This document shows, one piece after another, positions 55,487 through 59,702 of a stretch of 64,000 nucleotides of DNA. The notes under the pieces were generated by a model, which saw nothing but the letters and a program-made list of their open reading frames with translations, searched no databases and was not told the origin of the DNA. Each line of letters starts with the position of its first letter. The stretch's first letter is position 1. Position numbers and translations under genes: made by a program. Source of the stretch: Phascolomyces articulosus. Lineage: Eukaryota > Mucoromycota > Mucoromycetes > Mucorales > Lichtheimiaceae. The DNA is taken from assembly GCA_025677815.1 (NCBI GenBank), contig JAIXMP010000032.1:186001-250000 (forward strand), read 5' to 3'.

Positions 55487-55495
55487 GTCATCCAG
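55487..55495 (+). repeat. 9-bp target-site duplication (left copy)
   Basis: GTCATCCAG, identical to 59694-59702 immediately outside the right inverted repeat. Nine base pairs is the usual size for Mutator-like elements. Confidence 0.85.
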
Positions 55496-55525
55496 GGGTG
55501 GTGTGTTTTTTTGTGGGCTTTTTGG
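55496..55525 (+). repeat. Left terminal inverted repeat of the MULE
   Basis: GGGTGGTGTG followed by T7 and GTGGG; pairs with 59664-59693 with one indel and a few mismatches. Confidence 0.8.
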
Positions 55526-55890
55526 CATTTTTGTGTATTTAGCCACAGATTTTTTGTGTACTTCGCCACCGGTGTGGATGTTACACAGTACTTTGGGTAT
55601 TATAAAAAGCGACTTTTTTTGTGTACTTTTTTTTGTGTACTTTTTTTTAGGGGCCTGTCTCTTCATGGCGCTCACTCCCCTCACTCAAAAGATTTTTTTT
55701 GTGTGGTATTTTTTGTGTGGTTTTTTTTTTTTTTTGTGGTTTTTTTTTTTTTTGTGGTTTTTTTTTTTGGTGTGGTATAAACTAGGTATCTATCATTTAC
55801 AGCATTATATAGTCCATATTACAAGCGATTTTTTTTGTGTGGTATTTTTTGTGTGGCAAATTCAAAATGTACTTTTTGTGTGGTTTATCA
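55526..55890 (+). repeat. Subterminal T-rich GTGT(A/G)G repeats in the MULE
   Basis: About ten irregular repeats of T6-T15 followed by GTGTAC, GTGTGG or GTGG. They resemble the terminal repeat itself (T7-GTGGG). They lie only on the 3' side of the transposase gene and may be extra transposase-binding sites or slippage products. The ORFs through this stretch are compositional artefacts. Confidence 0.6.
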
Positions 55891-56381
55891 AGTGATTTTT
55901 ATTCATCTTTTTTTTAAAAAAAACTATCTTAGGCTCTGGTTACAATAGTTATAACTATTCTATTTAACTATTCTATTGACTATATATATCTAATATTTGT
56001 CACTTACCAAGTATATTGAACTATTTACTAACAACGTCATATAATCATACAACTTTACTTCACCAATTCACCTCAGGTTCACATAATTCAACCTGAGTAA
56101 ACCATACCTTATTCACACATGACAAATACATATTGATCCACTTGATCGTACAATATAAAGGCATATAGACCATCCTTATATGAAACCCGAAAGAATAAAA
56201 CAAAACAACAATTGAAATAAACAACAAGAAAAAAAGTCATCAACTTATCTCCAAATGGGTCATTGCCCGTCTATGTTACGAATTAGTTAAATTATAATGC
56301 TTTGTCAGTTAACTATAATGAGTGAAAAGAAAAAAAAAGTTAGTACCATTTTGGTTAACCATATTGAATATTACATACATG

Positions 56382-59300
56382 TTAAATATGGTGTCTTTGG
56401 TGATAAAAATCCAACCATGTTGTTGATAGTTGCTTTCTCTTCACATAAGGTTCATAGGTGAGTTCCAAACGTGGCCATTGCATATGATTAATTGCTTCGT
56501 CTTTCATGATAACTGTATAGAAATGTATTCTATCCAAGTGTAATATAATGGGGGTTTTGTCGTCATCTGTATTCTCTGTTTCGACATATGGCAAGAATGT
56601 AAATGATGCTTCAATGGGAGTTGTCAATACAATGACTGGTCGATTATAAACTTGAGCTAAAACAATTGGACATTCCAGATTGTCAAACCACAACCCCATT
56701 GTCACCGGTCCTTCTGGCTGATCAAACTTCTTCATCAATTTATGGTAAAGTGTTTCACCAAACATATCCTTAAACAGTGTCGATTGCTGTTCCATTTTTG
56801 TCTTCATACATAACTTGACAACAAAACACTGGTCTTCTTTTCCATAAATTGCAAAAGATGCAGCCCGCCAACCACAGTTACCATCATCAACAGGGCTATA
56901 TCTCCCAATAACGCCTTCTTTATCCAACTTGAACTGGCGCATATGTAAATCCGACATGGGAAGAAGGTTAAACTCACGGACCATCGGCTTAAACATCTTC
57001 TCTCTATACAAATAAAACATAACCAGTTATAAATTTTAAAAACATACCATGTTTCTTTTTTTTTATCAGTTATCGGCAATCTGCCTTCTCACCTAGCAGA
57101 CTTTTCATTTATCATCTTCATTCGTTTTAATTCGCGTTCCTCTTCTTCCATTCTTCTTCTCTTCTTGTTCTCCTTATATTCTTCACGTATTTGGTTTGCT
57201 TGCTGCTCGCGCCTGGCTGCCAACAATTCTCGTCTCGACTTACCATGCTCCTCCTTCGGCTGGTCTTTTTTATCGCCGTCAACCTTTCCCTTCTCATCAC
57301 CACTCTTTTCTTTTTTCTTTTCTTCCCCTATATAACACAACACATTAATGTAAATGTATGGAATATATATAAAATATCAAAATGTAAACAGTACAATAAA
57401 TGAAAATCGGGTACTAACCATGACCAAGAAGAGCTTTGGTAGTGTCAGGTGCACGTCCATCGTTTATAAATCTCTCCTTCTTTGGCTTTGAACTATCATA
57501 AAAAGAAATATATAAGTACACTAGCTAATCATACAAAAATATGATAATACCTTTTATTTTGAGTGTCTTTAACTCTGAAGCCATTGTCAAAGCATTCAAA
57601 GTCTTTTTCCAGTGATTGTAAGTAATAAAACATTTGACGTAATGTTTCAATCACTGGTTTCTTGGCATGAACAATCCTATAAAGATCTCGATGGTACGCC
57701 TCAATGCCATTGGTTGTACGACATTTATTTTCTTGCAATTCTTTCTTCAAGACAGCCTTTGATCTGAAAATCATTACCGCAATTTCATCTCTTGTCCACC
57801 ATTTTAACCAACGATGGCAGTTTGGAAATTCGTTGTGTAGATCCTGTACTGCACTATTGAATGTCTTTTCGGTTTTGGCATTATACATCTTGTTCGTCAA
57901 ATTCAAAAAATTATCATCAAAGCCACGAGGAACGACAAAGTGATTGCTGACTATGCGCTGGACCGACTGCTTCCAATGATGATAGCATCCACGAAGGAGC
58001 GTAGTTGCATCAATGTTGCTTCGAGGAAACGCATCCATAAACGCATCAAGAAAACCTTGACGTTGGGATTGGGAAAAATCCATAACCTATAACAATATAT
58101 ATATATAGTTCATACATTCAAAAATCACGTACCAGTAAGCAATACAATCAAAATACAGCCGGTTTCGCCGTTCATGTTTACAATGCAACTCGACAATATT
58201 GTGGCTGTTAAGTTACTTGTTTTCACGTCCTTATTCTATGTTCTACAACCTCCCCTCGTCCATATAGTATATGCTCCTTCTATATCAAACATGCTCACAT
58301 GCTCAAGACATTTTTTCATACCCATATCCTTATCACAAACTTCATTAACTGAACCTCTCAATACCCTTTCCCTTTCACCCATCACTCTTTCACCAATCAC
58401 CTTTTCATCCAAGCCTTTTACCCCATCACTCGCTCACCATCAAAACACTCATTCTATCACCAACCATCTACACTACAGTAGATCATTTTATACACTTACC
58501 AGCCCCGAAAAATTAATATCCAGTTCCTCGTCTGACTTGCCAAATGCAAATGCAAAGGTACGAAAGAAGGATAGAAAATAAGCCTTGAAATGTGTGGCTG
58601 TCAAACCATCAAGAACAGCTTGAAAAACCACACCAAACTTACCCGTCTCTTCAAAAAATATATTTGTAGAACACAGGTAATAACCCTTCGAGAAACAATC
58701 GTATGTGACGTCGGTGAGGATAGGGTAAGATTGAAAATCGACACGAGCAGCAACAGTTGGGGCACAGAACGTAATGCAGAATTTGCCGGGTGTTATATCG
58801 GTCGATTGGAGGTAATCGGGAAACTCCTCAATAAGATTACCAAGCTCGTCACTAGCAGATTCCAATGAGGGGCGGCTTGAAGGGAGTTTTCCTCTCTTGA
58901 CAAGAAAATTACGTCGGTAACGTTTAATTTTGCCGAGACGATGCAATGTCTTGCTGATTTTGATCATTGGTCGTGCTGGTTGTTGTGGACGTATACTGCT
59001 GGTGCCAACTTTCAACGCGTATGCTGTTTCTGACGGGCATTCAAGCACACGTTCCTCCACTTGGTCAAGAACTTCCATGGTGTCATGCAATGGTTCAAAC
59101 CTGTTATGAGTGTGTGTGCCTTGATGGTCAAGTGTACCTATTCTCCCAGTAAACTTGAAGTTCACTCTAACTGAACAACAAATGTGCTGCAAGGAGTGTT
59201 CATTACAGAATTCACAAGTGCCTTTGACCTGCTTTTCTATACCTTTAGGCGTACTCATGGGTCTGATTATCTTGCCACACGACTTATTGGTACAGTTTAC

Positions 59301-59489
59301 TGCACCCAAACAAATCTTGGTGATACTGAGGCCATTCTTGATGTGGCCATAATTTCTTTGGAAAAGCTGCCATCCAATGCTCATGTCATACACATATTCT
59401 TTTTCGTTGTTTTTGCTGTTTTCCTTTTTAGCTTCGCGAAGTTGGATTTGGTAAATATTTTTACCATCAGGAAATTGAGGGAAAGACAT
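56382..59489 (-). CDS. MULE transposase fused to OTU-type cysteine protease
   Basis: Five exons (59489-58500, 58086-57551, 57492-57419, 57327-57093, 57003-56382) give 818 aa in frame. Residues about 35-130 carry a Cys/His module (CTNKSC, CEFC at 92-95, CC, then HQGTHTH) resembling the GCM-type zinc domain of MULE transposases. The DDE core has Asp260 (LTDVTYD), Asp333 (VMDFSQSQRQGF), the MULE motif RGCYHHWKQ (Cys364) and Glu459 (TTNGIEAYHRDLY). Residues about 520-610 are a highly charged coiled-coil linker. Residues about 612-790 form an OTU-like protease with DDGNCGWRA (Asp652, Cys655) and a C-terminal RIHFYTV (His772). The transposase should cut and paste the element; the protease may remove ubiquitin-type modifiers or process the fusion (inference). 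Intron 1 (413 nt) is unusually long, but its removal joins FSGL to VMDF exactly at the conserved motif. The last three introns are 58-89 nt. Confidence 0.87.
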
Positions 59490-59663
59490 GGTACAGTAAT
59501 AAAACAGTGATAATGTAATTGGAAGTAATTAAGAAGTAAGAATAATTCAAACAATTTACAAGAGTATCCTTTTAATGTATTCATTTAATTGCGTATAGAC
59601 TGCTTTTCCTCTTCCCCGACTGCTTTTCTTCTCGCCTATTTCAATTTTTTGTCAGCTGCTAAA

Positions 59664-59693
59664 TCAAAAAACCCCACAAAAAAACACTCACCC
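59664..59693 (-). repeat. Right terminal inverted repeat of the MULE
   Basis: In reverse complement reads GGGTGAGTG, T7, GTGGGG. It ends exactly at the right copy of the 9-bp duplication and lies about 175 bp upstream of the transposase start codon, so it probably overlaps the promoter. Confidence 0.8.
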
Positions 59694-59702
59694 GTCATCC
59701 AG
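59694..59702 (+). repeat. 9-bp target-site duplication (right copy)
   Basis: GTCATCCAG, identical to 55487-55495. Confidence 0.85.

Follow-up and report, generated by a model that had tools for sequence, protein, structure and literature searches.

Several described transposons carry proteases that act on ubiquitin or ubiquitin-like proteins. The available part of one study places Ulp1 in Mutator elements, OTU (ovarian tumour) domains in Ginger and Helitron elements and a C19 peptidase on a Trichomonas transposase (PMC2836005), and the accessible portion of another lists MuDR-6_HM, a Mutator-like element (MULE) of a cnidarian, with an 'Ovarian Tumour Gene' motif (PMC6446971). In a 64,000-nucleotide stretch of the Phascolomyces articulosus genome (assembly GCA_025677815.1, contig JAIXMP010000032.1, positions 186,001 to 250,000 of the forward strand; the whole stretch is referred to here as the window), we characterized a complete and recently multiplied transposon that encodes a transposase fused to an OTU domain. 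A preliminary description of this element had presented the fusion as notable in a presumed mucoralean. The host is indeed a member of the Mucorales (Lichtheimiaceae) and the fusion is found in it, but OTU domains on transposons have already been published (the Hydra MULE MuDR-6_HM, as listed in the portion of PMC6446971 noted above, Ginger and Helitrons), and the fusion as such is not a new kind. What is new is the surrounding pattern, which was not visible to the preliminary description and is more interesting than the fusion itself: a USP-like replacement of the OTU in related transposases, and a homologous OTU in a lineage of MULEs recognized by the profile PF10551. In the open-licence literature searched, we found no report of a transposase-OTU fusion in Mucorales, nor of mixed deubiquitinase types in one cut-and-paste transposase clade or of one OTU family shared by two transposase lineages of a single genome.

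The closest described systems each share part of this arrangement. MuDR-6_HM is likewise Mutator-type with an OTU domain, but its host is a cnidarian, and the accessible portion of its source lists no zinc finger and describes no module exchange for it (PMC6446971); the same portion enters MULE-Mucorales with a duplication of 10 bp, ends of 40 bp and a SWIM finger, and adds no other motif. As far as the available part of PMC2836005 goes, Mutator-Ulp1 elements also join a Mutator-type element to a ubiquitin-like-protein protease, although this is Ulp1 and not OTU, and Ginger1 has a C-terminal OTU on its transposase, with another such protease (Ulp1) in sister elements, but a Gypsy-integrase-like transposase and other zinc fingers. 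Helitrons and Helentrons with OTU and VTD domains are similar in that one class of deubiquitinase-type domain replaces another, but they are rolling-circle elements and VTD is another class; in the part of that paper available, the authors suggest protection from degradation (PMC9741609). The OTU domains of human OTUD5/DUBA and VCPIP1 share the fold and catalytic motif of the window OTU, but belong to host enzymes and are only 17-25% identical to it. The locus described here bears on the question of why proteases for ubiquitin or SUMO are so frequent in transposons. Complete and recently multiplied, with both its ends and its gene intact and its OTU in a compact exon, the element is a directly testable system.

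To describe the copies of the element, the whole 47.4-Mb genome (110 contigs) was searched at the DNA level, and six full copies were found together with several diverged or partial ones. The terminal sequences are the same in all six, there are no substitutions among the aligned copies (only the length of T runs varies, in 2 of 4,200 columns), and each encodes the identical 818-residue protein. At the borders of the window copy the two GTCATCCAG duplications are identical over 9 bp; 9-bp duplications also flank L002, L003 and L005, a 10-bp duplication flanks L004, and L006 has none. The end GGGTGGTGTGTTTTTTTGTGGG and the reverse complement GGGTGAGTGTTTTTTTGTGGG align over 22 columns with a single mismatch and a single 1-bp gap, and the match extends to about 30 bp. 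In a joined-flank search of the genome, related uninterrupted target sites, with a single target copy, one base different and no element, were identified on contig C59 for L003 and on contigs C13 and C19 for L002; none was returned for the window copy, L004 or L005. The element has recently multiplied and has, in our reading, been recently active. A chance open reading frame or chance target site duplication is ruled out by the six copies, mostly with duplications of their own, and by the related empty sites; assembly duplicates are ruled out by the differing flanks, and an old element by the absence of substitutions. Thus the proposal that this is a complete, young element held, as did its perfect 9-bp duplication, inverted repeats of about 30 bp, intact 818-aa gene and the six residues named as catalytic, and the suggested genome search did return further copies with the same ends, most of them with duplications.

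Two loci related to these copies deserve mention. For L006 (C1:488248-492447), a relative of the right flank only was found 31 kb away (C1:523502-523612), its similarity ending at the element edge, which probably reflects a rearrangement or an exchange of flanks. L060 (C24:391387 to about 392025) is an element of ~640 bp whose two ends are those of the window family, flanked by a repeat that by eye is imperfect (CTTAGTTAA / CTTAGCTAA), and is probably an old non-autonomous derivative.

The gene is intact and has five exons with GT..AG borders that yield exactly 818 aa, with D260, D333, E459, D652, C655 and H772 all at these positions (Table 1). Matches to the diverged copies on C21, C67, C27 and C16 are interrupted after residue 331 and before the segment at residue 510, breaks at the same places that are expected of shared introns. 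The first intron (58087-58499) is 413 bp long, the equivalent gap in these four copies is ~340-370 bp, and the C24 and C13 frames are continuous where the window gene has this intron. Transposase and OTU are also joined in two gene models of Circinella minor, P0001 and P0002, as well as in P0005 (P. articulosus) and in P0015, which is partial; comparison of predicted genes thus supports the earlier view of the fusion as a single multi-exon gene. The full window protein had no Pfam GCM, MULE or OTU match at E<=1, so that its domains are called from family profiles and predicted folds. An NCBIfam search gave no informative match. The GCM-like zinc module of the preliminary description was recovered in this way, the family profile matching mouse GCM1 (1odh) at E 4.1e-6, with the Cys and His ligands in order and similarity to GCM1 present.

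Table 1. Coordinates of the transposon in the window, and loci of related elements elsewhere
Feature	Location	Strand	Remarks
Complete transposon, 4,198 bp	55496-59693		gene on minus strand
Target site duplication, left copy	55487..55495	no strand	sequence GTCATCCAG
Left terminal inverted repeat	55496..55527	+	~30 bp
Subterminal array, 12 copies of TTTTTGTG	55507..55880	+	within first 420 bp of element; candidate transposase-binding array
Exon 5	56382..57003	-	includes stop codon; carries OTU domain and, at the C-terminus, W-P...W extension
H772	56523..56525	-	
DGNC motif	56874..56885	-	contains D652 and C655
Exon 4	57093..57327	-	charged linker
Exon 3	57419..57492	-	linker
Exon 2	57551..58086	-	second part of DDE core (D333, CYHHW at 364-368, E459)
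Exon 1	58500..59489	-	residues 1-330: GCM-type zinc domain and first part of DDE core (D260)
GCM-type zinc domain	59085..59378	-	about residues 38-135; family profile
Right terminal inverted repeat	59662..59693	-	~30 bp
Target site duplication, right copy	59694..59702	no strand	sequence GTCATCCAG
Carriers of USP-like domain	L037 (C13:272620-277233), L044/L050 (C56, about 1693-1697 kb), P0009, P0017		
PF10551 MULE with downstream OTU	L046 (C38), L047 (C40), L012/L045 (C100), 7 further loci		

We identify the C-terminal domain as an OTU domain on the basis of its family profile, which reaches human OTUD5 at 9.3e-5, and of the OTU fold found in the predicted model (pLDDT, predicted local distance difference test, 68.8). 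The catalytic Cys is kept in nine of nine rows and the His in all eight rows that reach it, and the domain looks able to strip ubiquitin, that is, it is a predicted deubiquitinase. Our preferred reading, which we consider moderately probable, is of a Mutator-type cut-and-paste element with one protein that does three jobs, the OTU acting in cis on the transposase complex. The GCM-type zinc domain would bind the element ends, perhaps via the T(5-7)GTG sites that the subterminal array and the inverted repeat contain; the DDE core would excise the element and insert it with a 9-bp stagger by IS256/Mutator-type catalysis; and the OTU would take ubiquitin off the transposase complex to the benefit of the element, most likely by sparing the complex from proteasomal degradation.

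Several observations weigh against this reading. The OTU exon alone scored 15.2 bits against the Pfam curated cut-off of 23.3, a failure that had been named in advance as a ground for rejecting the OTU call; in view of the family profile and the predicted fold, the call stands. The GCM domain is also below its Pfam curated cut-off (the best relative, P0008, at 23.8 bits versus 25). Among the relatives, several are decaying: the OTU of C16 has a frame break, C67 lacks the E of the transposase core (G in place of E459) and C70 has stops. Deubiquitination in cis is, moreover, one of several possible roles, and the OTU has diverged faster than the transposase, with identities of 36-39% versus 58-66% between the window and the same five relatives, which could also mean weak constraint. 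For one pair of copies, C21 and C27, the ratio of nonsynonymous to synonymous rates (dN/dS) was ~0.33 in the OTU and 0.11 in the transposase, values that are rough given that dS is >1 but that suggest purifying selection on the OTU between these two. The fast divergence would fit a changing host target, and hence an OTU that acts in trans on host histones, on PCNA or other repair factors, or on silencing factors, where the element excises or inserts; the authors of the Ginger study proposed activation of repair factors, according to the available part of that paper (PMC2836005). We regard a trans role as unlikely, though a credible competitor. A cis role would predict that the OTU is fused to the transposase, as it is; the data do not distinguish the two roles.

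Relatives of the window transposase provide the first part of the wider pattern. The diverged copies on C27, C21, C67 and C16 hold a transposase and an OTU, as do the Circinella proteins. Further diverged rows, among them C56:1578-1580 kb, C20, C49 and C31, are transposase matches without an OTU row in the same search. More distant transposases of the same clade on C24 (29% identity to the window) and C23 are followed by an OTU frame, and C23 is broken up. On C13 and C56, in contrast, a transposase of the same clade (that of C13 being 41% identical to C24 and 32% to the window) is followed by a USP-like domain instead of an OTU. The two are contained in a single gene model in P0009, and P0017 is a predicted protein of 562 aa that combines them; its contig, 1,851 bases long, leaves little room for introns. 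The conserved motifs of the USP-like domain, N..SCYIDA, G-x-H and DN, are ones which we take to resemble those of USP proteases. Domain-only sequences of two of the three USP-like members matched UCH, the best at E 0.0065, which is below the cut-off, while no UCH match was obtained with full-length P0009 (E<=1) or the C13 frame (E<=10), PDB searches found nothing and no USP was among the fold matches listed, the P0009 model being poor over this domain. The label 'USP-like' is thus based on these motifs and on a profile match that is weak.

In the transposase tree, C24 and C23 group with the USP-bearing rows (99/99) and not with the window clade, and the order inside that group is unsettled (87/86). 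Holding the three USP rows together was not rejected (approximately unbiased test, p-AU 0.227), so that a single module exchange is possible. A test of whether the OTU-bearing transposases make up one clade gave p-AU 9.1e-52, a result that we set aside, since rows without a label (P0003, P0004, P0007, P0008 and P0011) weigh against the group in it. The occurrence of a USP-like domain in the place of the OTU in related transposases points to ubiquitin as the shared substrate, and an OTU that serves as a processing protease to cut the fusion protein is, on this evidence, very improbable.

The second part of the pattern comes from PF10551 elements. Of the genome's 29 PF10551 rows, 11, at 10 loci, are followed on their own strand by an OTU frame that lies 1.3-1.7 kb downstream, and the remaining 18 have none within 3 kb. 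The pairing was scored with 16 OTU rows out of 28; the 12 left out lie on different contigs or >3 kb away. None of the four Ulp1 (PF02902) rows of the genome adjoins a PF10551 row. L012, the sole such protein scanned, had MULE over the cut-off and FAR1 just under it. By hhalign (98.8%, E 1.3e-16) the PF10551-linked OTU and the OTU of the window family are homologous, and the W-P...W extension is common to both. Two further OTU frames of this second type (C14:8680-9414 and C58:198462-199196) have no PF10551 row on the same contig and may be cut-off elements or separated modules.

These results bear on whether the OTU is host-derived chance cargo that plays no part in transposition. Pack-MULEs do capture gene fragments, as the available part of PMC6431247 describes, but a homologous OTU in both the window clade and the PF10551 lineage, the shared extension, the catalytic residues kept in the compared rows and the apparent purifying selection between two copies all argue otherwise, and chance cargo is disfavoured as a scarcely probable explanation. 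Since one OTU family occurs in two transposase lineages that are unlinked by profile, and sister transposases carry either an OTU or a USP-like domain, the modules appear to be exchangeable parts; the apparent presence of a different enzyme of the same kind in related elements suggests that ubiquitin removal helps movement. We therefore propose, tentatively and with somewhat less than even confidence, that deubiquitination itself, and not a given enzyme, is selected in Mutator-type transposition of these Mucorales. If module exchange is confirmed, activity and not enzyme class would be what the element needs.

Membership of the window transposase in the MULEs, claimed in the preliminary description, was retained in part. 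The core has the motif order D-x-TY ... D ... C-x-x-HW ... E, which by eye we take to be like that of MULEs. D260 is present in 10 of 10 aligned rows, D333 in nine (P0006 is gapped) and E459 in all eight rows with letters there (P0005 and P0009 are gapped), and we infer that these three residues are catalytic. ISCth4, the only transposase among the fold matches listed, is a weak IS256-type match, and the IS256 family is presumably the bacterial counterpart of MULEs. In addition, the 9-10-bp duplications lie within the MULE range, given as 8-11 bp in the accessible portion of PMC6446971, and inverted repeats of ~30 bp are also in keeping with MULEs. Set against this, the window protein had no Pfam MULE (PF10551) match at E<=1, the six copies are missing from the 29 PF10551 rows, a profile link to the PF10551 MULEs of this genome failed (hhalign E 0.028, probability 1.8%, outside the core), and the model behind the IS256 match was a poor one (pLDDT 41.8) made from a relative. 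The missing PF10551 and profile-profile matches would be expected of a DDE superfamily of its own, outside Mutator, that has a GCM domain and coincidental 9-bp duplications, which we consider rather unlikely in view of the duplications of 9-10 bp, the motif order and ISCth4. With no profile support, MULE membership rests on duplication length, ends, motif order and the weak fold match, and we designate the transposase as Mutator-type, weakly tied to the IS256/Mutator fold by modelling, and not as a proven MULE. The window protein had no Pfam match at E<=1 to Ulp1 (PF02902) or to the Rep and helicase of Helitrons and Helentrons, and its target duplications are unlike those elements.

Finally, the left 420 bp of the element contain 12 TTTTTGTG sites, versus a mean of 0.6 and a maximum of 6 in 2,000 Markov simulations; outside the element there are 11 sites in 59,784 bases on both strands. 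This candidate transposase-binding array is one-sided, the right end having one site, and its first site falls inside the left inverted repeat.
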